DNA from: Rubripirellula lacrimiformis
GTDB taxonomy: Bacteria > Planctomycetota > Planctomycetia > Pirellulales > Pirellulaceae
Reading direction: 5' to 3'
DNA length: 64,000 nt
Assembly: GCF_007741535.1 (NCBI RefSeq)
Contig: NZ_CP036525.1
Span: 7,998,001 to 8,062,000 of the forward strand
Each line of letters starts with the position of its first letter. Positions within the stretch are counted from its first letter, which is position 1. Under the pieces are notes generated by a model. That model was not told where the DNA came from. It saw only the letters and a program-made list of their open reading frames with translations, and did not search any database. A program made the position numbers and the translations under genes. Below are positions 9,094 to 58,318 of this stretch, piece by piece.

Positions 9094-12000
9094 CTAGCTC
9101 CACAACCCCGAGACGTCATCGGCCAACAACCGGATCACGTCGGTGGGGTCGGTTTCGTCGTCGGCGTCGTCATTGATCGAAACAACCGCAGAGGACTGAG
9201 CGATCTGGTTTTCGCTAGACGATGCATCGGAGATCAAGTCGGCTTCGGCGAAGTCGGCAAACACTTCATCGCTAATCGCTCGTGACGACCGGTAGGTTGG
9301 CGTGGATGCCATCACCTGCGGCACCACTTGTTCGCCTTCGCCCGAGGTCAGTGCGGCTTGGTTCTTTTGACGTGACAGGTAATTGATGACTTGCAAGGCG
9401 TCCAATGCGGTCACCCGTTCGTCGCCATTGACGTCCGTAAAGTAGCTGACGCCCGCCGATCCGCTTCCGGCTTCGCCTTCGGCCGACAAGCGACTCATCG
9501 CGTTGATGATCACCAGAGCGTCGATCGGCGAAACAAACCCGTCGTTATTGACGTCTTGAGCAAGCGATGGGTTCTGGAACGCAGTACGCGTTCCCGCACC
9601 GACATCGATGACCAGTTTGTCGTAACGAATTCGTGACACGTCGATCGGGTCATCTTCGTTGAACAACAAGGTGTCTTGGAATGGGAACAGGTCGGCCGGC
9701 GATCCAGTGACCTCGGCAGTTCCCGGTGCGATCGCATCGAAGAACAGAGTAGCCAACCGAGCCGGATTGACTCCCACCCCGTTGCTGCTGAGCAGGGTTC
9801 CAAATTCGTTGATGATGCCCGGCGTTGATGCGGTTCCAACGGCGGCATCGTCTTCAAAGCCTGTACCGAAATCAACGTCGAAGTTCAATTCGTCGCTGGT
9901 AATGGTGTTGGCTGGACGAATCACACCCTGGCTATAAAGCACATCCAAGTAGCCGGCAAAGACGTAAGTCGAACCGAGCGATCGCAGGTCTTCGACGTCG
10001 ACTCGGATCCCGAAGCGATCGCCAACATTCACCTCGCTGATCGGTGTGACACCGTCAACGCCGACCAATTCAAAGTCGATTGCGACTTCTGCGTTAGCTT
10101 GCGAATCGCCCAATGCGATCGTGGCTTCAGCGATGCTACGGATGCCGTCGTCAGTGACGATCACATAGGTGAATCGTTCCAGACCATTGGCATTGACGTT
10201 TGCACGATAGCTGAAGAAGTCATCATTCAGGTTATCAGGTGTGCCATTGTCATCGATGACCAGACTGCCCAGAGTTGGCTGCGTCACCAATCCGAATTCA
10301 CGGACGGTTCCGGTCGATCCTAAGTTGTCGTTTTCCAGAACGTCGATCACCGCACGATCGACCGTCGATGCACTGATTAGATCGCCGTTGCTGTCACGTC
10401 CATCGGGGAACGAGTCGTCCAAGGCTGCGGTAAAGTTGCCGGTATCCGCAACGATCAACAGTTCCGTTCGGCCCAGTCGCAACTGATTGACCAACAGGGC
10501 GACATCCGATGCCAAGACAACGGTTTCGCTTTCAGCATCGTCGGCTGGGTTGGCCAAGAACTGTGCCACACCGGGTGACAACGCTTTCATCGTGATCGTG
10601 AACAATTCGGTCGGGCCGTTATGTTCCGTTTGGCCACCGATACCGATCTGTTGGACTCCCCCAACCTCGTCGATCAAACCAGGAGTTTGTGCACTTGCTC
10701 GTTGCAACCCATCGGTGCGGCTAAACAGCGGTCCGAAAGAGATGTCAAACGGGAAGTCATCGCTGCTGTCGGTATCCTGAGTCGACACCAAGGCATCGGT
10801 GTAAAGCAGGTCCAAGAACGCAGACGCCACTCCCTCGGGGTTGGCAAAGGCACGCAGGTCTTCGACTGAAACGCGAACCTTGAATTCCTTCCCAACTGGG
10901 ATGCTGGAAATCTCGCGTCCATCGACACTGTCCAAGATATCGATCGAAAACGCGACGACATCGTCGTTGCGAGTGCCTGGCAACAGGTTGACCGTGACAG
11001 TCGCACTGCTGACCGAACCAGCCGAATCCTGGATGCTATAAGTGAACTCTTCGGTTCCGTCAAAGCCAGGCTGCGGCGTGTAACGCAGCGATTGACCGCC
11101 ACCGATGATTTGAACGTTTCCGCCAGCCGATCCCGGCGTGACGCTGGTGATCGAGATGCCGCCCGACAGGCTAGGCACGTCGTTGTTGAGAACATTCAGC
11201 GGACGCTGAGACGAATCCTGAGCGACCTCGAACGAATCGTCGACCGCGATCGGCACGTTCGACTGGAACGTCACATTGACCACGACCGTAGCCGTCGATC
11301 GATTGCCAAACTGATCAACGACGGTGTACTGGAACACGTCACGACCGGTGAAACCGTTCGGCGGTGTGTACAGCAACAGTTTCTGGTCATTGGAAATCGA
11401 AACCGAACCGACGGTTTTGACCGAAGTGTTGTTGGGATCTTCCTTCGTCAGCGTTTCGATCGTCAGCGGGTTGTCGACGGTTTGGAAATCATTGCCCAAG
11501 ACGTCCAGCATCTGTGACAACGAATTTCGCGGCACCGAAAAACTATCGTCGTTGGCGATCTCGGCAGCGTTCAGAATCGGGAACGCGTAATCTTCGACTT
11601 CACCCGTGGCAGTGAAACCGGCCGATCCAAGATTCGCTTGCTGGCTCAGACGGAATCGAACATAGGTCGTTCCGACCGATGCGTCCGCTGGCACGTTCAC
11701 ATTGACGGTCAAATCTTGAGCGCCGGTCGAGCTGTTGACCGGAAGGTTGGTCACAAATTGCTCGCCCACGTCCAAGAAATCGCCGTCACGGTTAAAGTCC
11801 ATGAAGGCTTGCAGGAACGCGGGAACGCCCGTCGTGTTGGTCACGTTGACGCGGAATGTGGCTGAATCGCCAGGTCCCAGCGGCGAAGTCAGCTGGACGC
11901 CATCTTCGTCGTCAACGTTTCCGTTATTGTCATCGCCATCGGCCAATTCCGATGGTTGACCGCTCAGTTCGCGGTCGATGTTGGAACCCAGAGTCAGACC

Positions 12001-14175
12001 CTGAATGATGCCGTGGGCGGCTCCACCGGCGGCGACACTGGTCTTGTATTCGTCGGGTGCGTCACCGTAATCGCTCGACGACAGGAACCCAAAGTTGAAG
12101 TTATCGGTCAACGACGTGCCATTGAAATCGACGATGTGTTCGCCAAGCGTCGGCTCGCTAAGACCGGGGTAGGTCTGTTCAAATCCAGCCGGGGTGACGA
12201 CGCGAACCGTGTAGGTTCCCGGACCGGGGAAGTTGATCGCATAGCTGCCATTGGCAGCCGATTGGGCACTCGGTTCGCCCAGGTCGGGACGGTTGTCTCC
12301 ATCCAAATCGGCGTAGACATAAACGCCCGACAACCCGGTATCGCCCGAATCACGCTCGCCATCGCCATCGTTATCGACAAAGACGGTGCCGGTGATGTTG
12401 GACGTGAGCTGGCTGAATCCAAACTTAATCGCACCACTGGTGGAACTGGATACCGACGATGCAGTCGTGGCCACAAAGTTGGTCGGAGTCACCGCACGAA
12501 TGTTGACCGATCCCGGTGGCAACGTCAGAGAGTACGAACCATCCGCACCGGTCACAGCACGCGGTTCGCTTGTATCGAAGACACCGTTGTTGTTGACGTC
12601 GGCATAGACCGTAACGCCAGCCAATCCGGATTCGCTGTTGTCCGCACCGTTGCGATTGACGTCATTGAAAACGCGACCGGTCTGTCCGACTCCGCCCTTG
12701 GTGCCGCTGGAAAGTGCATGCGCCATGCTGGCGGTGACTTTCTCGAATCCGGAATAAACTTCTGGGTGATAAAAGTCATTTCGGAAGATCGGTTTCACGT
12801 CGTCCAACGTGCCAAAGATCCCGTCTGGGCCCACGCCCATATTGTTGGCGTTGGCAAGCAGCGTGCCGCCGGCATCCGAGATCGTCGCGATCGAGTTGGA
12901 GTTCAGCGTGTGCAGCATGCCGAAGGTGTGACCAGCTTCGTGAGCAATCACGCTGGACAAAAATTGGATCGTTGCATCCACTTCGCTAGCGGCCGGAGCG
13001 ATCGGGAATCCCAATAGCGAACCTTGGAATCCGTCCAGCGCAAACAGACCGAATTCGGTCAGGTCAAAGTTACCCACGTCCACCGATTGAGCGATTCCGT
13101 AGACACCGGGAACACCGATGTCCAACCCAGTCCCACCGATCAGCAAGCGGGTCATCCGCGGGTCTTGGGTATTGTTTTCGAACCAAGCACGGTGCGAAGG
13201 AATGTGGCTGTTCAGAATTCGGATCGCGTAATCACCAGCGACGCCGGTATCCGAGAAATCGCCATTGTTGCCGGAATTGCCGAGGTCTTCGAAGACCCGA
13301 ATGACGTCCTCGTAGGTTTCGGTGATGATCCGGTCGGCTGTGACGCTGTCACCGTATTCAAGCCCCAAGAACGGCAACGAATCGGTGAAAGTAGGCACCA
13401 CGGTGAAACCGAAAGTCGGTAGCCCGGGGACCAACAAATCATTATTGAACAGGTTATTGTCGACAACGCCGCCCTCGAAATCGAGGTACAGAATCTGGGC
13501 GTCACCATACGCCAGCGACTCCGTCGTGGGACGATACGTCCGCAGACCGACGGTGTAGTTGTTGACAACGTCGATCGAACCGACGGTTAAGTAATAGCGA
13601 CCGTCTTCGGGGATCACCATCGTTGCATTGGCGTTGGCCACCGTTTGCAACGGGTACGCCAATCCGCCAACCGGAACACTGCTGGTCAGCGCGACGGATC
13701 CGCGAAAATCGCGAATCGTCAACTGGCCGGCACTGCCGGTGGTGGCAACATCCAGGATGTCGCCGGCTTTCAGGTCAAACGAGAAAGTATCCAGATCGGA
13801 CGAAAAACCGCTGGTGGCCGATGTGCTGTTCGTGATCGGCAGCGTGCCAGTCACGTCAATCGTGCTCTCTTGCCCCGGGCCATTGCCCAAGGGGATGAAA
13901 TCAGCGTTGGACCGGAAGTCGTTCTGACCGGTGTCGCTGAATCCCTCCGATTCGAAGAACGATGCCGCGGGGACCGTCCCGATATTGCGAGGCGACGTGT
14001 AGACGGGCAAATCCGTCGGCGCCGGCTGGATCGGAGGCTCGGTCAAAACCGCCATCAGCCGGCGGCTTTCCAGCCCTTCCAGCGTCAAACGCCGCTTCTT
14101 GGCCCGTTCGATCTTAGATCGCTCGGAAGCTTTACGGCTGGAATGTTTCGATTTCGAATCGTTTCGTTTGATCAT
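9094..14175 (-). CDS. giant multidomain surface protein: metalloprotease, SdrD-like, GEVED, cadherin-like, cohesin-like and dockerin regions
   Basis: This 1693-aa protein starts with a basic segment and LEGLESRRLM (residues 32-41), the planctomycete N-terminal motif found on large exported proteins in place of a usual signal peptide. HEAGHTFGMLH (about 409-419) fits the zinc site HExxHxxGxxH of metzincin proteases. Two SdrD-type B domains follow (about 495-665, with VFNDVNRNGADN and VFVDNDGDGERD), then a GEVED domain (about 700-860). Three cadherin-like blocks come next with NDDSF/DDSFEV and VLxND motifs, alternating with two cohesin-like beta regions (about 1065-1230 and 1370-1500). A type I dockerin with two calcium loops (DVNNDGFVSPIDAL and DVNGDERVTALDAL, about 1550-1620) and an acidic tail end the chain. 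A calcium-dependent cell-surface or matrix role is likely. A terminator lies just past the stop. Confidence 0.88.
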   Translation of the reverse strand: MIKRNDSKSKHSSRKASERSKIERAKKRRLTLEGLESRRLMAVLTEPPIQPAPTDLPVYTSPRNIGTVPAASFFESEGFSDTGQNDFRSNADFIPLGNGPGQESTIDVTGTLPITNSTSATSGFSSDLDTFSFDLKAGDILDVATTGSAGQLTIRDFRGSVALTSSVPVGGLAYPLQTVANANATMVIPEDGRYYLTVGSIDVVNNYTVGLRTYRPTTESLAYGDAQILYLDFEGGVVDNNLFNNDLLVPGLPTFGFTVVPTFTDSLPFLGLEYGDSVTADRIITETYEDVIRVFEDLGNSGNNGDFSDTGVAGDYAIRILNSHIPSHRAWFENNTQDPRMTRLLIGGTGLDIGVPGVYGIAQSVDVGNFDLTEFGLFALDGFQGSLLGFPIAPAASEVDATIQFLSSVIAHEAGHTFGMLHTLNSNSIATISDAGGTLLANANNMGVGPDGIFGTLDDVKPIFRNDFYHPEVYSGFEKVTASMAHALSSGTKGGVGQTGRVFNDVNRNGADNSESGLAGVTVYADVNNNGVFDTSEPRAVTGADGSYSLTLPPGSVNIRAVTPTNFVATTASSVSSSTSGAIKFGFSQLTSNITGTVFVDNDGDGERDSGDTGLSGVYVYADLDGDNRPDLGEPSAQSAANGSYAINFPGPGTYTVRVVTPAGFEQTYPGLSEPTLGEHIVDFNGTSLTDNFNFGFLSSSDYGDAPDEYKTSVAAGGAAHGIIQGLTLGSNIDRELSGQPSELADGDDNNGNVDDEDGVQLTSPLGPGDSATFRVNVTNTTGVPAFLQAFMDFNRDGDFLDVGEQFVTNLPVNSSTGAQDLTVNVNVPADASVGTTYVRFRLSQQANLGSAGFTATGEVEDYAFPILNAAEIANDDSFSVPRNSLSQMLDVLGNDFQTVDNPLTIETLTKEDPNNTSVKTVGSVSISNDQKLLLYTPPNGFTGRDVFQYTVVDQFGNRSTATVVVNVTFQSNVPIAVDDSFEVAQDSSQRPLNVLNNDVPSLSGGISITSVTPGSAGGNVQIIGGGQSLRYTPQPGFDGTEEFTYSIQDSAGSVSSATVTVNLLPGTRNDDVVAFSIDILDSVDGREISSIPVGKEFKVRVSVEDLRAFANPEGVASAFLDLLYTDALVSTQDTDSSDDFPFDISFGPLFSRTDGLQRASAQTPGLIDEVGGVQQIGIGGQTEHNGPTELFTITMKALSPGVAQFLANPADDAESETVVLASDVALLVNQLRLGRTELLIVADTGNFTAALDDSFPDGRDSNGDLISASTVDRAVIDVLENDNLGSTGTVREFGLVTQPTLGSLVIDDNGTPDNLNDDFFSYRANVNANGLERFTYVIVTDDGIRSIAEATIALGDSQANAEVAIDFELVGVDGVTPISEVNVGDRFGIRVDVEDLRSLGSTYVFAGYLDVLYSQGVIRPANTITSDELNFDVDFGTGFEDDAAVGTASTPGIINEFGTLLSSNGVGVNPARLATLFFDAIAPGTAEVTGSPADLFPFQDTLLFNEDDPIDVSRIRYDKLVIDVGAGTRTAFQNPSLAQDVNNDGFVSPIDALVIINAMSRLSAEGEAGSGSAGVSYFTDVNGDERVTALDALQVINYLSRQKNQAALTSGEGEQVVPQVMASTPTYRSSRAISDEVFADFAEADLISDASSSENQIAQSSAVVSINDDADDETDPTDVIRLLADDVSGLWS

Positions 14176-39688: not shown

Positions 39689-40507
39689 GTGAATTCACCA
39701 GCCTCGATCGACGTGAACGTTTCGCCTGGACAGTCGACCGCCGCTGGTCTGTTGCTGATCGGACACGGGACCCGTGACCAGACGGGCACCGATCAGTTTT
39801 TCGAACTCGGACGGATCCTGGCTGATCGGCTGGGTTCGGTACCGGTCGCAGTGTCGCTGCTGGAATTCCAAGAGCCGACGATCCCGCAGGCCTTTCAGGA
39901 ATTGATCGACCGAGGCGTCCAGAGAGTCCACGTGGCGCCTTTGTTGCTGTTCGCCGCAGGGCATGCCAAAGACGATATACCGGCCATCATCCGCCAGTGC
40001 ATTGGTGAATCGCCCGAGGTCACCACCGAGCAATCACGGCCGCTATCGCGTCACCCATCGATCGTCGAATTGATGGTCGAACGGATATCGGAATCGTTGG
40101 CGATGACCAATTCGCCGCCATCACGAACGGCGCTGATCGCCGTAGGTCGTGGCAGCCGCTGGCCATGTGCATCGACCGACATGCGAATGTTGACCGAGAT
40201 CGTTGCCCAACGCTTTGCGTTTGCAGCATCTGCCACTGCCTTCTATGCGATGGCATCCCCTTCGCTGCCGGAAGTCATCGACCAGGTGGCCGGATCCGGC
40301 CAATTTGATTCGATCGTGATCCACCCGCACCTGCTGTTCGAGGGCCGGCTGTACCAAGCGATCATGGATCAGGTCAACGAGGCAGGCATGAAGCATGCCG
40401 ATGTCAAGTTCATCGTTTCCAACTATCTGGGACCGCATGCCAATGTCGCCGATGCAATCATCGACCGCAGCGGACTTGGTGCAACGCAGAATCCAGAGCG
40501 GGCCTAG
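39689..40507 (+). CDS. CbiX/SirB-type sirohydrochlorin chelatase
   Basis: This 272-aa protein begins at GTG 39689. It has two class II chelatase-like halves. The first holds LLLIGHGTRDQTGTDQFFEL, with the catalytic His in GHGTR, then the second conserved His in PLLLFAAGHAKDDIP. The second half begins LIAVGRGSRWP, where the first His is replaced, and has VIHPHLLFEGRLY. Such long CbiX proteins insert cobalt, nickel or iron into sirohydrochlorin for cobalamin, F430 or siroheme. The metal cannot be read from sequence. No other tetrapyrrole genes lie in the window; the HMA protein just upstream suggests linked metal supply. Confidence 0.9.
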   Translation: MNSPASIDVNVSPGQSTAAGLLLIGHGTRDQTGTDQFFELGRILADRLGSVPVAVSLLEFQEPTIPQAFQELIDRGVQRVHVAPLLLFAAGHAKDDIPAIIRQCIGESPEVTTEQSRPLSRHPSIVELMVERISESLAMTNSPPSRTALIAVGRGSRWPCASTDMRMLTEIVAQRFAFAASATAFYAMASPSLPEVIDQVAGSGQFDSIVIHPHLLFEGRLYQAIMDQVNEAGMKHADVKFIVSNYLGPHANVADAIIDRSGLGATQNPERA

Positions 40508-40534
40508 TGCTAGCCGTAATGTTGATTGGATTCG

Positions 40535-40951
40535 GAGAACACCGAAAGTCTTGGCGACTTCCGCTACGAAACGAGAACACCGAAAGTCTTGGCGACTTCC
40601 GCCACGAAAGGAGAACACCGAAAGTCTTGGCGACTTCCGCTACGAAAGGAGAACACCGAAAGTCTTGGCGACTTCCGCTACGAAAGGAGGACACCGAAAG
40701 TCTTGACGACTTCCGCTACGAAATGAGAACATCGAAAGTCTTGGCGACTTCCGCTACGAAACGAGGACACCGAAAGTCTTGGCGACTTCCGCTACGAAAG
40801 GAGGACACCGAAAGTCTTGACGACTTCCGCTACGAAACGAGGACACCGAAAGTCTTGGCGACTTCCGTTACGAAAGGAGGACACCGAAAGTCTTGGCGAC
40901 TTCCGCTACGAAATGAGGACATCGAAAGTCTTGGCGACTTCCGCTACGAAT
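40535..40951. repeat. tandem array of 38-bp units, family B core (11 units)
   Basis: Eleven contiguous units of 38 bp start GAGAACACC or GAGGACACC and share the core CGAAAGTCTTGGCGACTTCC then GCTACGAAA. AAGTC-TTGGC-GACTT forms a small stem in each. Variation is limited to a few positions. The core is the same as in the 54-bp array beside IS copy 2, while the linkers are unrelated. The array separates the convergent CbiX and 907-aa genes. It has no spacers, so it is not a CRISPR. Confidence 0.95.
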
Positions 40952-45389: not shown

Positions 45390-45779
45390 CTAGCTTTTCT
45401 TTTCTTGGCCAGCTTGCTGTTGCATCAGACCTGGACGAACTCGTTTGTTGATGTCCGTTTCCAGAACGCCGAACACCGATTCGTGACGTGCAACCGACAT
45501 TTGCAGTGCGGCTAGCAATCGCTTGGCGGTGAAGAAGTTCAGGATGATGCGTTGCTTGACTTGGATTGGGTCCTTCGGCACGCCGATTGGCTGTGGGTTC
45601 AAACCAAAGTCAACAATCAACTCTTCAGGCGAACCGGTGACGCGGCAAAAGTTCGCGTAACAAGCGGCGGCTTGGTCGTCTTCGACCTGAACCTGAACAG
45701 GTTGCTGAGCTTGAGTCTGAGCGGCGGCGGCTGGTGCGGCGGCTGGTTTCTCAGCTTCAGGGGTCTTGGCGTCTGCCAT
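45390..45779 (-). CDS. DUF3467 family protein
   Basis: The 129-aa protein has an Ala/Pro/Gln-rich leader (about 1-28), then the DUF3467 domain: VQVQVEDDQAAACYANFCRV, TGSPEELIVDFG, and the helix RIILNFFTAKRLLAALQMSV. The domain is small, cytoplasmic and of unknown function; it is often annotated in planctomycetes and archaea. The gene lies 284 bp downstream of the export-like operon and on the same strand. A start at ATG 45779 follows a GAGAGATC purine site. A terminator follows, so it is the last gene of its transcript. Confidence 0.85.
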   Translation of the reverse strand: MADAKTPEAEKPAAAPAAAAQTQAQQPVQVQVEDDQAAACYANFCRVTGSPEELIVDFGLNPQPIGVPKDPIQVKQRIILNFFTAKRLLAALQMSVARHESVFGVLETDINKRVRPGLMQQQAGQEKKS

Positions 45780-46063: not shown

Positions 46064-48301
46064 TCAGAGTTCGAAGTTAAAGGTTTGTGCGATCACGCGC
46101 CACAAGCGGCTGCCCAGCGACATCGGGTCCACATGGATCTTGGCGGACCCGCGATAACCGGGCCGCATCACAATCGAATCCATGTTCAATGGGACTCTGG
46201 CTTGATAGGAAACACTGCGGGGTTTGACCTGGCCGGTGGCCGGATCGATCTCGGTCTGCAGGTCGCCACCGGTTTGGCTAGACATGGATACCGAGGTGGA
46301 ATCGATCGGTTCGTTGGACTTCTCTGTGATCACACCGCTGAACGTTTCCAATCGTTGTGCGTCTAGTTTCATATCGACCGATTGGCCTTCTCGCACCATT
46401 TGCACATCGCCTTGATCGATGATCAAAACAGCTTCGTGCGCGTCGGGTTTGCCGATTTCGCAGATCACGTCATCGGGGGTCAATAGCGCGCCACGATTGT
46501 TCGGTTCTAGCGGCGACCCGACCCAGCCTGGCAGACGACCATCTTGGGCCTTCTGGGGTTGGCGAATCGGTGGCGGAATGATGTAACCTTCGCGTTTGGC
46601 GCGAACCACCAATCGGTCAATTTCTTCCTGCGTCTTGGCTCGCAACTGTTGAATCGATTCCAACAGTTCCGACTGGGTTTCGATCTGTGCTTTCAGCGCC
46701 ATGTCGTCACGACTTCGGCGCGACATGTTGTCCAACTTGACCTTCGAAAGGACTTCTTCCCCCTTCAGGTCGGCCAAACGAATCTGCAGGTCGGGATTCT
46801 TCAGCACGGCGATCGGGTCGCCTTCTTGAACGATGGCATTCGCATCGACGGTCCATTCGATACGTCCCGGGACACCGGCGTAGACGGCACCGGCCTGGCT
46901 GGGGCGGACTTCAAATGCACAATCAATGTGGTGGGGCAAAGGGATGTAGCAAACGCCCGCGACTGCTAAAGAGAAGATGGCGATTGTTGGCAACAGGTGA
47001 GTGCGTTTCACTTTCGCTAATCTCCCAGGAGTGCGACAGAACTTCCAAGTTTGAATGACCGGTTGAGCGACTAGGCCGAAGAATCCGACCACCGCTACCA
47101 TCCGACCGACCGCTTGCAAACCATAAGGTTCAAGCACTTTGATGACGAACCAACAAATCGAAAACACCACGACCCAGCGATAGATCACACTGGCGATCGT
47201 GAACATTCCGAACATGAACCGGCCGCGGGTGGGCAAGAACGGATCGTCTTGCAATTCCAGTCCCAAGCAGGTTTGTTGAAACCATCGTTTCAACACTTCG
47301 GTACTTTTTTGACGGAGGTTCGGGATCTCCAATGCATCCATCAGGATGTAATAACCGTCGAATCGCAACAGCGGGTTCCCGTTGACCAGGACCGTGCTGA
47401 CGACGTTCAAGAACATCATGTTCAAACACAAGTCATTGATCGTCGTGCCCGATTCGGTGAACCACCAAACATAAGCCGCCACCGACGCAAGGATCATTTC
47501 GACATAGATCCCGGCCGCACCGATCCAAACGCGTTTCCATTTGTTGGGCAACATCCACGAATCGGACACGTTGCAGTACAAACAGGGCGTGAAGACCAAC
47601 AGCATGAAGCCGATTTCGTGGCACTCGCCGCCGAACTTCTTACAGCTCAACCCGTGCCCGAATTCGTGCAGCACTTTGACGATCGCCATCGTGCCTGCCA
47701 AAATCAGCCAACGATCAGCAGCAAAGAACTGCTGGAAGGTCGGCAGCTTTGCGTACACCGTCTCGTACTGGCTGGCCAGCAACAGAGCGGACGACAAGAT
47801 CAACATCAAAAAGAACAGCAGCGCCGGGACGGTGAAAATCCATCCAAACGGTTTCAGCATCCAATTCAGAATGCGTTCGGGGTCGAATCCCCGATAGCGA
47901 AGGGCAAAGACGTTGGCAAATTTGCCCATCACTTCTTTGTTCTTCTTTTTGCGCCCGCGTTCCCGCAGCGCTTTGCCCTGTCCGGGCGAATTGCTGATCA
48001 CCAAACCGCTGCGGTGCAGCATTCCGATGAACTGTTGCAAATCGCCAAAGGTGATCTTTTGCGGCGCGAACCGCCGCTCGAAACCGTCTTTGATCTGCTG
48101 CAGCGAGACGTGCCCATCCAACATATTCAGGATGAAGTACTCTTCGTCGTGAAAACGAAAGTACTGCAGACCCACTGGCTCTTTGACGACCCAGTAGCCG
48201 GTTCCCTGATAACGCTGGCGGTTGGCCGACAGGTCGGGGCGTTTTCGGACCGTCAGCGGTCGCGATGAACTGCTGACGAGTGATTCGGCAAGTGTTGGCA
48301 T
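46064..48301 (-). CDS. PqqD-like / M50 metalloprotease / HlyD-like membrane protein
   Basis: The 745-aa protein fuses three parts. Residues 25-105 resemble PqqD, a peptide-binding winged helix (YFRFHDEEYFILNMLDGHVS). Residues 145-440 are a site-2 protease-type membrane domain with HEFGHGLSCKKFGGECHEIG (about 212-231; HExxH gives two zinc ligands), and LLRFDGYYILMDALEIPNLR, which supplies the third, Asp. The C-terminal part (about 465-745) after a further span is an HlyD-like adaptor: a split lipoyl domain (GRIEWTVDANAIVQEGDPIA) with a helical hairpin between. This resembles the putative peptide zinc metalloproteases (YydH-like). It is last in the operon, eight bases after the HlyD gene, and would act in the cytoplasmic membrane with its adaptor outside. 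Confidence 0.88.
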   Translation of the reverse strand: MPTLAESLVSSSSRPLTVRKRPDLSANRQRYQGTGYWVVKEPVGLQYFRFHDEEYFILNMLDGHVSLQQIKDGFERRFAPQKITFGDLQQFIGMLHRSGLVISNSPGQGKALRERGRKKKNKEVMGKFANVFALRYRGFDPERILNWMLKPFGWIFTVPALLFFLMLILSSALLLASQYETVYAKLPTFQQFFAADRWLILAGTMAIVKVLHEFGHGLSCKKFGGECHEIGFMLLVFTPCLYCNVSDSWMLPNKWKRVWIGAAGIYVEMILASVAAYVWWFTESGTTINDLCLNMMFLNVVSTVLVNGNPLLRFDGYYILMDALEIPNLRQKSTEVLKRWFQQTCLGLELQDDPFLPTRGRFMFGMFTIASVIYRWVVVFSICWFVIKVLEPYGLQAVGRMVAVVGFFGLVAQPVIQTWKFCRTPGRLAKVKRTHLLPTIAIFSLAVAGVCYIPLPHHIDCAFEVRPSQAGAVYAGVPGRIEWTVDANAIVQEGDPIAVLKNPDLQIRLADLKGEEVLSKVKLDNMSRRSRDDMALKAQIETQSELLESIQQLRAKTQEEIDRLVVRAKREGYIIPPPIRQPQKAQDGRLPGWVGSPLEPNNRGALLTPDDVICEIGKPDAHEAVLIIDQGDVQMVREGQSVDMKLDAQRLETFSGVITEKSNEPIDSTSVSMSSQTGGDLQTEIDPATGQVKPRSVSYQARVPLNMDSIVMRPGYRGSAKIHVDPMSLGSRLWRVIAQTFNFEL

Positions 48302-48309
48302 GGGGTTCC

Positions 48310-49278
48310 CTACTTAATCAGGATTTGGGCCTTCATGCCGGGCTTGAACTTCCAGTCATCGCCGACTTTTTGGTTATCGATTTCCACCCACACGCGGTAG
48401 CGATCGTTCAGGTCGATTTCCATGCTGACAAAGCCCAACTGGCCTTGGATGCGGGTTCCGTCATTGACTTGGTCTTCGATGATGACTTCGACGGGAGTTC
48501 CTTTGCGTACCTGACCGACGTAGCGGAGCGCGTCGATGTCGCCTTCGACACGAAGTTTGTCCATTTGGATCAGGCTAGCCATGGGAGTCCCGGGCTGGAC
48601 CCATTGGCCCAACTGCGACATGCGAGCTTCGATGATTCCGGTGTGCGGCGCGATGATGGTCCGTTTGGTCAGTTCGAATTTGGCCATTTCCAATTCGCTG
48701 CCTTTGCCGATCATTTTGACCTGGGCAATCTTTTGTTCCTGTTCGGCCAGTTCGATCCGCAATTCCGAACGTCCCGCTTCCAGCCGTTTCTTTTCCATTT
48801 CCCAGTACGGGATGGCGCCCTCTTTACGCAGTTCTTCGAACGACTTGGCTTCGGCGATCGCAACCTTGGCGGCTTCGCGAGCGTCACGCAGGTTGACGTC
48901 GTTGGATGCCGTCAACATGGCCTCCTTCTCTTCGGCCTTCTTCAGTTCGACGGCCAGACGAGCCGCGGTGTCGTCAATCACCGCCATCACGTCGCCCTTC
49001 GAAACCTCGTCGCCTTCTTCGAAGCGAAGTTCATTCAGCAAGCCTTCGGCCGTGGCAGGCACATCGACTTTGTTGATGTATTGGACGTAGCAGTTTTCGG
49101 CACTGATTTGGCCAGCGACCGATGACGTGCGGGACTGAAACTGATTGCCCTGCGGTGTCGTCGGCGGCTGCTGGAACGATCGCGGCTGAGACAACGTGGA
49201 TGCCGGCGGCGTGAACTGTTGGGCAGACACCGTCGCAGTAACCAACAAGGCGACTGGCGCTAGAAAAGTAAGACGCAT
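48310..49278 (-). CDS. HlyD/RND-type periplasmic adaptor protein
   Basis: From ATG 49278 (MRLTFLAPVALLVTATVSAQ, a cleavable signal peptide) the protein has 322 aa; an in-frame start at 49302 adds eight residues. The membrane-fusion layout is visible. A lipoyl half (NKVDVPATAEGLLNELRFEE, GDEVSKGDVMAVID) leads into a long helical hairpin (about 110-190, KVAIAEAKSFEELRKEG). The second lipoyl half follows (IIAPHTGIIEARMSQLGQWV), then the beta barrel and a final strand. Adaptors of this kind link inner-membrane pumps to outer-membrane channels, but no RND, ABC or MFS pump gene is beside it. Its neighbours are two other HlyD-domain proteins. Confidence 0.88.
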   Translation of the reverse strand: MRLTFLAPVALLVTATVSAQQFTPPASTLSQPRSFQQPPTTPQGNQFQSRTSSVAGQISAENCYVQYINKVDVPATAEGLLNELRFEEGDEVSKGDVMAVIDDTAARLAVELKKAEEKEAMLTASNDVNLRDAREAAKVAIAEAKSFEELRKEGAIPYWEMEKKRLEAGRSELRIELAEQEQKIAQVKMIGKGSELEMAKFELTKRTIIAPHTGIIEARMSQLGQWVQPGTPMASLIQMDKLRVEGDIDALRYVGQVRKGTPVEVIIEDQVNDGTRIQGQLGFVSMEIDLNDRYRVWVEIDNQKVGDDWKFKPGMKAQILIK

Positions 49279-49342
49279 CTGGCGAAGCTCCGAAGAGATC
49301 AAAGGTTTGAATCAGGATGGGGTGGTGATTTCGCGACCGGTT

Positions 49343-51406
49343 CTAGAAGAAGAACTTGTAACACCACTCGATGATTTCGTGGAAGAAAACGAAACCGCTG
49401 GATCGGCGACCGCAGTAAACCTTGGCGATCACCTTGGCACCCGGACGCGGCTTCAGTTCGCGAAGCGGTTCTTGATCGGGAACCGCACGCATCTTGATCA
49501 CCGCACCGTGTTCTTCGTTGGCTTCGGCGCGAGTCGAAACGGTATTGACGAACATCACTGCATCGAGCGGCTTGTCGGGGTCGGTCGCCAAGATGTACGA
49601 CACATCCAACTTGGAATCGGGTTGATCGAGGTTGTTCTTGGCGATGTATTGGTCCAAGTGACCTTCGCGTTTCTCGGGAAGGTCCAATTCCAGATACATC
49701 GGCTGGTTCAGGTCGGCGACCTCCAGCAATACTTGCCCAGTCATGATCGGTCGGCTGCGGAGCGTCTTTTCGACGTCCCATGAAACCACGACTCCATCGA
49801 TCGGCGAGCGGATTTCGAGGTCATTGCGACGTTCTTCTTGCAATGCGAGTTTCTGCTGCAGCACGCGATGTTTGACTTCTAGTTCGTTTTGCTCGGCCAT
49901 CAACGCCCGCTTTTCCGAATCATCCAATTGGCGACGGAGTCCCAGTTGGCCTTGGACGCGAGTCTTTTCAGCAAGTGCGGTTAGGATCTGACCTTTGATC
50001 TCGGTCAGCTGGACTTCCATGTCCGGGTTCCGCAGCCGGACCAAGACGTCTCCCTCGGCCACAACCTGGTTGTGATCCACCAAGACTTCGATGACTTCGC
50101 CATCGATCGGTGCAAAGACTTCGCGGCGAACATCGGGAATCAATGTTCCCTCGGCTTCCAGGTTGAAGTCCTTGGGAATGAAGACCAGTCCCAGAGCCAC
50201 CGCGGCGATGGCGGCCAAAACGGCCAATGTTTTCGGTAGCGTGCGAGCGCGAACGATCCACGTGGCATGACCAAGCGTCCGCCATAGCGGCATCAGAAAC
50301 AGGTTCGTGTGCGAGCGGGCGTTGGCGATCGCGCGGGTACCGTGCTCGTACACCAAGTCGACTCGCGCCTTGTAAACGTCGGGCGGAATATCGCTTTCGA
50401 TCTGTTCGACAATCAATGCACCGATCACTTCGCCACGGTGTGCGTTGTCGCGATCAATCGTGCCGGCGGCACCCGCCTCTTCGCCGGTTCCCAATCGTCG
50501 TTCGGGTTCGCGAAGCGGCAACACGACAATGTTTCGGCCGTACGATTCGTCGACGTAATCTTCCAGCGCCTCTTCAATTTGCGGCGGCAAGTCTTCGGTG
50601 GAACCATCGTGCCACAGCGGTTCGCCCGCGGCGACCACTCGCGTTGCCAGGTTGTTCAGGGCGGTGACGATGTTGGACCGATTTTCGATCGTGTCTTGGC
50701 CGCTGATCGCTTGGACCCTGCACTTGCCACCCCGTTTCATCGCCACACTGACTCGGTCGCATCCGATCAGGCGACGACCTTCGTTGGCAACGATGTAACA
50801 GGTTTCTTTCAGATCCAAGGATTCGTGCGATGCTCGCGCAAACGAATCGGCCTGTTGCCAAAGGAGTTGGCGATCACCCAAGGTTCGTAGTTTCTGGCTG
50901 CGGAGCCATTCCGACGCCAGATCGCACATCTGTTGCAGGAACCGCAGGTAACCCCGTTGGGTGTCGGGAGCCGTATCGGGTCGCTGAAAGATCTCGATCA
51001 GGCCATCGTTTTGGCCTTCGTGTTTCAGTGCCCCCAAGACCAGCAAGTAGCGGGTCGGGTTGCCTTCGGCCTCGCCATCGGTGGTTCCCGAATAGGGCGG
51101 AACCAGCAGCGATTGACCGCTGTTGGCGACTCGCTGCAGCAACCGTGTGTGCCGCGTCGCGTCGTCGGTGTCGCTGGCCAGAATCGAAGGCTCGGCGTTG
51201 ATTTGGTACTGCAAACGCAACTGGCGATCTTCGTCCAACAACCAGATCGCACCGCCGGCAGCGGCCAGAGCGGTGATGATTCGCGACAGCAACTCTGAAT
51301 AGAACTCTTCCGCCGTAGCGCCGCTTTTTGCCAACGCAGCGATCTCGTTGACCAAGCCACGGATCTGGGCTTTCGTTTCTTCAACAGTTTGTTGATTGAC
51401 CGACAT
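49343..51406 (-). CDS. GAF-domain / HlyD-like membrane adaptor fusion
   Basis: First gene of the operon, 687 aa from ATG 51406. The cytoplasmic N-terminal half has two GAF-like sensory domains, about 25-170 (AAAGGAIWLLDEDRQLRLQY) and about 195-370 (ICYIVANEGRRLIGCDRVSV is close to the second). One membrane span (about 398-416, TLAVLAAIAAVALGLVFI) leads to an HlyD-type adaptor: VFAPIDGEVIEVLVDHNQVV, a helical hairpin (about 490-550), then the second lipoyl half (LEIRSPIDGVVVSWDVEKTL). A chain with cytoplasmic ligand sensors and an extracytoplasmic adaptor is unusual and suggests that export is controlled by a small molecule. No pump component is present. Confidence 0.85.
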   Translation of the reverse strand: MSVNQQTVEETKAQIRGLVNEIAALAKSGATAEEFYSELLSRIITALAAAGGAIWLLDEDRQLRLQYQINAEPSILASDTDDATRHTRLLQRVANSGQSLLVPPYSGTTDGEAEGNPTRYLLVLGALKHEGQNDGLIEIFQRPDTAPDTQRGYLRFLQQMCDLASEWLRSQKLRTLGDRQLLWQQADSFARASHESLDLKETCYIVANEGRRLIGCDRVSVAMKRGGKCRVQAISGQDTIENRSNIVTALNNLATRVVAAGEPLWHDGSTEDLPPQIEEALEDYVDESYGRNIVVLPLREPERRLGTGEEAGAAGTIDRDNAHRGEVIGALIVEQIESDIPPDVYKARVDLVYEHGTRAIANARSHTNLFLMPLWRTLGHATWIVRARTLPKTLAVLAAIAAVALGLVFIPKDFNLEAEGTLIPDVRREVFAPIDGEVIEVLVDHNQVVAEGDVLVRLRNPDMEVQLTEIKGQILTALAEKTRVQGQLGLRRQLDDSEKRALMAEQNELEVKHRVLQQKLALQEERRNDLEIRSPIDGVVVSWDVEKTLRSRPIMTGQVLLEVADLNQPMYLELDLPEKREGHLDQYIAKNNLDQPDSKLDVSYILATDPDKPLDAVMFVNTVSTRAEANEEHGAVIKMRAVPDQEPLRELKPRPGAKVIAKVYCGRRSSGFVFFHEIIEWCYKFFF

Positions 51407-57571: not shown

Positions 57572-58318
57572 ATGAGCTTAAAGACTGCCATGACGGGCTT
57601 TGCCTGCGCACTGCTAACAATCCTCAGCAGCTCTGCGGATGCTGCGATCGTCCGATTTGATTTCGATGGAACGGTCTTCCGTCGATTCAACAACGGCTTG
57701 CCCGACGCATCGGACATTTTCGGCTTATCCGTCACGACCGGCGATGCGGTCAGCGGATCATTCACCATCGATACCGCCGCCACAGTGTTCGGCAGCCTTA
57801 CCGGATCAGTAAGCGGCGCAGCGGCCGGCTACACTCAAACGCTTCCCGGCGGGATCCGGGTTGAACTCGCAGGTGGGACCTTCACATCCGATGGTGACTA
57901 CGCAACGTCCATCGCCCATGACTTCCAAGACGGAACGAACCCCACTGCATTTGAACAATTCGCACTTAGCGACGGTGTCTCGTCGGGCAGCCAAAACATC
58001 ACTGGCGACACAATCCTCTTGAATGCCAATCCGGAAACCGCTCGCCTGGGCTTCACCTTTCAAGACAACGACTTTGCCGCGTTCAGCTCCACCACGCTGC
58101 CCACTTCGCTGGACCTCAGCTTGTTCGAGATCGCCAGTGGCGCCATCAGCGGGACTCGACCGAGCGGCCAGACGAATCCATTCTTCTATAGTGTCGAGTT
58201 TAGTATCGACTCGATCACCGCAACCGCAGTGCCGGAACCATCATCAATGGCGTTGCTGGCCAGTGTCGCAGGGGTAGCAATGGTACTTCGACGTCGCCGT
58301 CACTCCCGAACCCATTGA
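57572..58318 (+). CDS. PEP-CTERM sorting-domain protein
   Basis: A signal peptide (MSLKTAMTGFACALLTILSS, cleavage near ADA) starts this 248-aa protein. The C-terminal 30 residues form the sorting tripartite signal: VPEPSS, a hydrophobic stretch (MALLASVAGVAMVL) and the basic end RRRRHSRTH. Proteins with this tail are handled by exosortase and linked to exopolysaccharide or surface attachment; the exosortase is not in this window. The middle is a beta-rich, Gly/Thr/Ser-rich domain typical of such substrates (FTIDTAATVFGSLTGSVSG) with no enzyme motif. It is 18 bases upstream of the TPR-glycosyltransferase gene, so the two may be co-transcribed. Confidence 0.9.
   Translation: MSLKTAMTGFACALLTILSSSADAAIVRFDFDGTVFRRFNNGLPDASDIFGLSVTTGDAVSGSFTIDTAATVFGSLTGSVSGAAAGYTQTLPGGIRVELAGGTFTSDGDYATSIAHDFQDGTNPTAFEQFALSDGVSSGSQNITGDTILLNANPETARLGFTFQDNDFAAFSSTTLPTSLDLSLFEIASGAISGTRPSGQTNPFFYSVEFSIDSITATAVPEPSSMALLASVAGVAMVLRRRRHSRTH

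Follow-up and report, generated by a model that had tools for sequence, protein, structure and literature searches.

The three-adaptor gene run analyzed here, together with the DUF3467 gene downstream of it, probably supplies the inner-membrane and periplasmic components of a machine dedicated to the secretion of giant surface proteins bearing an N-terminal LExR leader. This reading, which is based on sequence comparison and structure prediction, is supported by the conserved gene set, its co-occurrence with a SecA-type ATPase and with the leader, its adjacency to leader-bearing giant genes, the domain folds, and the intact catalytic residues. As part of the same reading, the leader (PF07595 Planc_extracel/NF012209 LEPR-XLL) would substitute for a Sec signal peptide, and the exporter is best read as leader-directed, SecA-powered, and type-I-like.

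The set lies within a 64,000-nucleotide stretch of the Rubripirellula lacrimiformis genome, referred to as the window (Table 1). A first-pass annotation had described three consecutive genes with HlyD domains and gaps of 64 b (adaptor 1/adaptor 2) and 8 b (adaptor 2/adaptor 3), and had noted that no ABC, RND, or MFS pump gene was adjacent. Both points were confirmed, the former by the open reading frames, Pfam matches, and an AlphaFold2 model, and the latter by inspection of the stretch on either side of the set (40–58 kb). The Pfam matches were GAF_3, GAF, Biotin_lipoyl_2, and HlyD_3 for adaptor 1, HlyD_D23 and HlyD_3 for adaptor 2, and Peptidase_M50 and HlyD_3 for adaptor 3. Adaptor 2 has a clear Sec signal peptide (MRLTFLAPVALLVTATVSA), with its frame being open up to a TTG at 49302. 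No TolC-type gene adjoins the window set, and a scan for promoters and terminators gave no excess over shuffled sequences. Elsewhere in the window, a tandem array of 38-bp units (GGAGGACACCGAAAGTCTTGGCGACTTCCGCTACGAAA, 94% matches) is placed directly after the gene at 39689-40507 and ahead of a gene for a 907 aa protein, and another protein ends in a PEP-CTERM-like sorting tail (VPEPSSMALLASVAGVAMVLRRRR).

Table 1. Coordinates of the features discussed; positions are those of the window unless a genome position, locus, contig, or accession is given.
Feature	Position	Strand	Description
GAF-GAF-TM-HlyD adaptor 1	49343-51406	minus	687 aa; first in transcription order; GAF 33-165 and 198-333, one TM helix ~389-407, then periplasmic HlyD domain
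Exported HlyD/RND-type periplasmic adaptor 2	48310-49278	minus	322 aa from ATG 49278
RRE/PqqD-M50-HlyD adaptor 3	46064-48301	minus	745 aa
DUF3467 protein	45390-45779	minus	129 aa; 284 b downstream of adaptor 3; Pfam
Candidate cargo	9094-14175	minus	1693 aa; Big_9/SdrD_B/GEVED/dockerin/cadherin surface protein
Leader motif LESRRLM of candidate cargo	14053-14073		
Tandem array	40534-40950		eleven 38-bp units
Protein with PEP-CTERM-like tail	57572-58318		
Secondary SecA of the window genome	L065:9249-11468 (6.23 Mb)		739 aa
Paralogous set	2.07 Mb		three genes, same order as window; TolC-type gene divergent beside it
Paralogous set	2.23 Mb		three genes, same order as window
Paralogous set	3.71 Mb		TolC-type gene precedes
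Paralogous set	4.03 Mb		two genes
Second DUF3467 protein of the genome	G000:C1:5818395-5818901		254 aa frame; two DUF3467 domains
E. coli plasmid set (L058)	NZ_CP081687.1 44829-64580		complete TolC/adaptor/HlyD/RRE-M50-HlyD set

The window genome holds five paralogous sets in all, the window set included, and the gene order of the window set is kept in all 20 orthologous family loci, where the adaptor 1 orthologue always comes first; for these two reasons, the set is far beyond what chance would give. TolC genes adjoin the sets L007, L009, L043, L049, and L056, of which L007 and L009 are paralogous sets of the window genome, and no GAF domain was detectable in related sets. M50-HlyD proteins are present in 59 of 60 family genomes and in 57 of 195 Planctomycetota genomes. 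Eighty named genomic loci (Alpha-, Beta-, Gamma-, and Deltaproteobacteria, Nitrospirae, Desulfobacterota, Myxococcota, and Phycisphaerae) served as an independent sample, and an adaptor gene was found upstream of the M50 gene in 72/72 of those having that flank. The fullest set found was that of a Nitrospiraceae locus (L125), where a giant frame, two tandem DUF3467 genes, an adaptor, M50, a secondary SecA, two small adaptors, and TolC form one run.

The suggestion of the first-pass annotation that the DUF3467 gene may belong to the set was borne out by its adjacency in 17 of the 20 orthologous loci and by its presence in 44/57 Planctomycetota genomes bearing M50-HlyD versus 14/138 without it. 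On this comparative evidence, DUF3467 is regarded as a conserved member of the set. It was present in 26 of 65 loci of the 80-locus sample, and in proteobacteria, it sits between the giant gene and the adaptors; it was found together with a secondary SecA (SecA2) in 22 loci and without one in a single locus, an association that was not significant (Fisher P 0.13). A role as a SecB-like chaperone was considered and found no support, the structural model being weak (pLDDT 61.7) and Foldseek giving no significant match (top rows, PC4/Whirly-like, E ~0.5). The second DUF3467 protein of the genome lies far from any M50 set, and proteins with two DUF3467 domains recur in the class.

The likely cargo is indicated by the neighbors of the set, which abuts giant genes of up to 49 kb in Proteobacteria, Nitrospirae, Planctomycetes, and E. 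coli plasmids. In most of the annotated plasmid loci read, a giant gene of 11–49 kb lies directly upstream in the same direction (E. coli, Pontibrevibacter, Methylosinus, Azospirillum TSA2s, Variovorax, Alisedimentitalea, Pseudosulfitobacter, Thalassospira, Niveispirillum, Eleftheria, and Mesorhizobium), the exceptions being Azospirillum B510 (a lone M50 gene), Magnetospirillum (a 1.5 kb ELWxxDGT gene), and A. argentinense (3.5 kb genes); two of the plasmid giants carry the annotation LEPR-XLL. In the 80-locus sample, a long same-strand frame abutted the set upstream in 34/57 loci, compared with an opposite-strand frame in 15/57. Because opposite-strand frames of 1000 codons or more also exist beside the sets (15/57 upstream and 8/54 downstream), the N-terminal motif and the annotated plasmid genes were used rather than frame length alone. 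Counting only giants with a readable start, and with two antisense frames set aside from the genomic loci, the LExR motif was found at the start of 22 of 26 abutting giants (14/16 in genomic loci and 8/10 on plasmids) versus 1 of the 248 other genes of these loci that served as controls (P 2e-27). The giants counted with the motif begin with a basic stretch and a sequence like LEPRYLLSAD, LEPRLLFSAD, or MEPRILLSAD, and the curated LEPR-XLL HMM agreed for 8 of the 9 giants tested. Two abutting giants, those of Azospirillum TSA2s and Alisedimentitalea, have no motif at the annotated start, and two of the visible downstream giants (L166 and L173) resemble membrane sensors.

The leaders fall into variants that may follow the exporter. 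The four readable sets without SecA2 (E. coli, Variovorax, Niveispirillum, and Eleftheria) have the variant ALExRxxFDxA in common, as opposed to (L/M/F)EPRxLL(S/N)AD in Pontibrevibacter, Methylosinus, Pseudosulfitobacter, and Mesorhizobium, which suggests, within this small sample, that the leader class tracks the exporter class. The giant gene of the E. coli plasmid set (L058) is 13.4 kb long and Ig-like, and an LExR leader (MTTIKNRRLRPRAHRFALESRQLFDGAAL) stands at the start of its product. Among 5,426 complete genomes of E. coli, 24 were found to carry the M50 gene of this set, which is mostly plasmid-borne in them, at an identity of at least 99%. A DUF4347 domain comes right after the LExR motif in the giants of L120, L142, and L043; as other adjacent giants appear similar on visual inspection, such cargo may commonly have DUF4347 as an N-terminal domain.

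Within the 195 Planctomycetota genomes, LEPR-XLL matches were found in 28/57 genomes with M50-HlyD versus 3/138 without it (P 7e-15; within-family P 9e-4), and matches to either Planc_extracel or LEPR-XLL in 37/57 versus 10/138, the second figure being in line with the 8 or so expected by chance at the thresholds used; Planc_extracel alone showed no within-family association with M50-HlyD. Of the control genomes, that of Deinobacterium chartae matched LEPR-XLL. Motif genes lay within 15 kb of M50-HlyD genes in 8 cases against 2.9 expected (P 0.009; positions read by hand). A LEPR giant, GAF-HlyD, and M50 form one run in two genomes (G199 and G159), which includes the secondary SecA in G199, and a motif-bearing frame of 7,909 codons follows DUF3467 in a third (G048). 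The window genome has 34 Planc_extracel matches, many of them in frames of about 5,000–9,900 codons, and the 17 leaders read were basic, almost all of them being without a Sec-type hydrophobic core. The candidate cargo of the window likewise has a basic, non-hydrophobic N-terminus, with its leader scoring 25.8 bits for Planc_extracel (cut-off 25.5). No cargo gene abuts the window set itself, the nearest motif gene being ~32 kb off. The idea that absence of the set explains absence of Planc_extracel within the family was not supported, as there is a draft family genome (G022) that has four Planc_extracel matches and neither M50-HlyD nor a second SecA.

The window set is probably not without an energizer, its likely motor being the secondary SecA encoded in trans, 1.8 Mb from the set, as judged from the distribution of the genes. 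This protein matched SecA_DEAD with 338 bits and had no SecA_SW (wing/scaffold) match, and its TGEGKT, DEAD, GMTGT, and GRGTD motifs are intact. A second SecA_DEAD protein is present in 59 of 60 family genomes, the sole genome without one being also without M50-HlyD, and its gene adjoins the orthologous set in 20 of the 59. The unlinked copies, including that of the window genome, fall into a single clade (13 rows, 99%), which is grouped with the linked copies, as expected if the linkage of SecA with the set was lost once; the unlinked copies of two genomes (G032 and G019) lie outside this clade. Phylum-wide, more than one SecA_DEAD protein was found in 44/57 genomes with M50-HlyD versus 4/138 without it (P 3e-27; stratified by family, P 8e-4). 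In the plasmid-borne proteobacterial sets, the gene right after M50 is annotated as "DEAD/DEAH helicase," "prepilin peptidase," "translocase," or "SecA," and two such proteins as well as a planctomycete one were identified by Pfam as SecA_DEAD without the wing/scaffold domain. A secondary SecA also follows M50 in 60/72 loci of the 80-locus sample. None was found beside the sets of the E. coli plasmid type, and 13 of the 57 planctomycete genomes with M50-HlyD lack a second SecA, indicating that the secondary SecA is not the motor everywhere; in these cases, a different motor or the housekeeping SecA may be used.

The protein linking the adaptors to a leader would be adaptor 3, for which an AlphaFold2 model (mean pLDDT 84.5) was obtained. 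In this model, residues 16-105 matched leader-peptide-binding RRE folds (TbiB1 and lasso B1; Z 10.3–10.6, rmsd 2.5–2.9), the solved lasso-peptide RRE structures being complexes with leader peptides, and PqqD scored above the Pfam cut-off in a relative (L059). The predicted fold of residues 140-387 matched the site-2 proteases RseP, SpoIVFB, and MjS2P (M. jannaschii S2P) with Z of 9–11, and that of residues 443-733 matched the MacA, EmrA, and MexA adaptors with Z up to 16.6. The motifs HEFGH (HExxH; 212-216) and NPLLRFDG (NPxxxxDG; 309-316) are present, and H212, E213, H216, and D315 are invariant across 43 relatives, in agreement with the earlier description of an intact site-2 protease joined to a PqqD-like peptide-binding domain.

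These features may be combined into a working scheme. Binding of the leader would fall to the cytoplasmic RRE/PqqD domain of adaptor 3, as its predicted fold suggests, and the wing-less secondary SecA could drive the unfolded chain, given its co-occurrence with the set, its adjacency, and its intact motifs. The site-2 protease, whose active site is conserved, would clip the leader at or in the membrane. From their domain identity, GAF-HlyD, the exported HlyD, and M50-HlyD could form a mixed ring docking to a TolC-type channel, which is encoded next to some copies of the set. More speculatively, the GAF domains might gate or regulate the machine from the cytoplasm. It is rather unlikely, but the strongest of the alternatives, that the giants cross by SecYEG with the secondary SecA replacing or assisting SecA, and that M50, HlyD, and TolC act only afterwards in leader clipping and passage to the outer membrane. 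Gram-positive SecA paralogues do work with SecY, the secondary SecA retains the preprotein-binding domain, and the E. coli-type sets, which have no SecA of their own, could use the housekeeping SecA. However, the leaders are without a hydrophobic core, and the secondary SecA is without the wing/scaffold domain, which was tied to SecY contact by Kamneva et al. (PMC4452313). A general SecYEG-independent route is conceivable, though less likely than not. In it, an RRE-S2P-adaptor fusion as the inner-membrane gate, a wing-less SecA motor, and a mixed HlyD ring with TolC would pass chains of up to ~16,000 residues, and the route would be used for the largest planctomycete surface proteins and have a SecA2-less variant on E. 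coli plasmids.

The RRE-M50 fusion could instead process a small precursor peptide in a RiPP-type maturation like that of daptide/epipeptide clusters. The lasso-peptide RRE-like fold of the N-terminal domain would be consistent with this, as would the best NCBIfam matches of adaptor 3, namely, the daptide intramembrane metalloprotease (NF041824; 176.5 bits) and YydH/LiaK (NF058609; 59.8 bits), which share the RRE/PqqD and M50 architecture. Both scores are, however, far under the curated equivalog cut-offs of 300 and 225 bits, respectively, and adaptor 3, unlike those proteases, is fused to an HlyD adaptor. In addition, the recurrent adjacent frames are giants and not small peptides, and no RiPP-modifying enzyme recurs beside the set, making such maturation quite improbable. 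Of the export machine envisaged in the first-pass annotation, the three adaptors, the peptide-reading domain, and the protease stand, whereas the small peptide gives way to giant LExR proteins as the likely cargo. Regulated intramembrane proteolysis, in which GAF sensors and the site-2 protease free a membrane-bound regulator and the HlyD domains act as periplasmic sensors, would suit the RseP/SpoIVFB-like fold and the cytoplasmic GAF domains, but it is very improbable, as three adaptors, a secondary SecA, TolC, and leader-bearing giants as recurrent neighbors fit secretion, and no conserved sigma/anti-sigma pair lies beside the set in the loci read. Ordinary efflux through an ABC, RND, or MFS pump encoded elsewhere is hardly credible: 44 HlyD_3 and 30 OEP matches in the genome mean that other pumps exist, but none adjoins the set in any paralogous, orthologous, or annotated plasmid locus read, and the recurrent gene is the secondary SecA. 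The conserved pairing pump gene elsewhere that the first-pass annotation had held to speak against its proposal has thus largely been found in this SecA, which is not an ordinary efflux pump.

The proposed leader-directed machine resembles type I secretion (HlyB-HlyD-TolC) in its HlyD adaptors and, putatively, in a TolC-type channel and giant repeat adhesins as cargo. It differs in that type I secretion has an ABC transporter, which is not adjacent in the window set or the annotated plasmid loci, whereas a SecA-like ATPase and a site-2 protease are found instead and the leader is at the N-terminus. RND/MFS tripartite pumps differ by their transporter, which is absent from the vicinity of the set in the window and orthologous loci. 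Peptidase-containing ABC transporters read and clip an N-terminal leader during export; by analogy, they would work alike, with an unrelated protease and motor.

The first-pass annotation had taken the system to be undescribed, but Kamneva, Poudel & Ward reported the same gene set in 2015 (PMC4452313), with GAF-HlyD/M50-HlyD/HlyD loci and a "secondary SecA_DEAD" ATPase spread over Planctomycetes, Verrucomicrobia, Proteobacteria, Nitrospirae, and Chlorobi. They suggested SecA as the ATPase and M50 as the membrane part, left the biological role open, named no cargo, and made no mention of DUF3467. Among the operons they give is META1p2402-2399 of Methylobacterium extorquens AM1. The window agrees with their locus in having GAF-HlyD, M50-HlyD, and HlyD together and a secondary SecA without SecA_SW in the genome, and differs in that this SecA lies outside the locus; as they also reported unlinked cases, linkage was not treated as defining. 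The motif is known as well: Planc_extracel (Studholme et al, 2004) and LEPR-XLL describe the same N-terminal motif as that of the adjacent giants and of the window genome's matches, and PMC8567305 quotes RRLxxExLExRxLLA as the proposed novel export signal of Studholme 2004 and gives it for 8 of the 10 longest Tuwongella immobilis proteins. In the open literature that was searched, no named exporter for the motif and no later paper tying the locus to LEPR-XLL were found. With the locus type published in 2015 and the motif known, what is new is the likely substrate, for which LExR giants are identified here; judged by the open literature that could be searched, the comparative link of locus and motif, the regular membership of DUF3467, and the separation of the motor from the locus in this clade also appear to be new. 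The motif of giant planctomycete surface proteins has, in the literature searched, been without a named exporter since 2004 and the locus without a cargo since 2015, and the data join both questions, which become directly testable, also in amenable hosts such as Methylobacterium and with the E. coli plasmid set. If the reading is true, bacteria would have a further secretion route for adhesin-like proteins of very large size, with a SecA relative instead of an ABC transporter as its power source. The secondary SecA is found in a 1436-codon frame between GAF-HlyD and M50 in a betaproteobacterial MAG (L111), and M50 lies inside a 2004-codon frame in a Myxococcota MAG (L155); these long frames are possibly fusions or odd frames.
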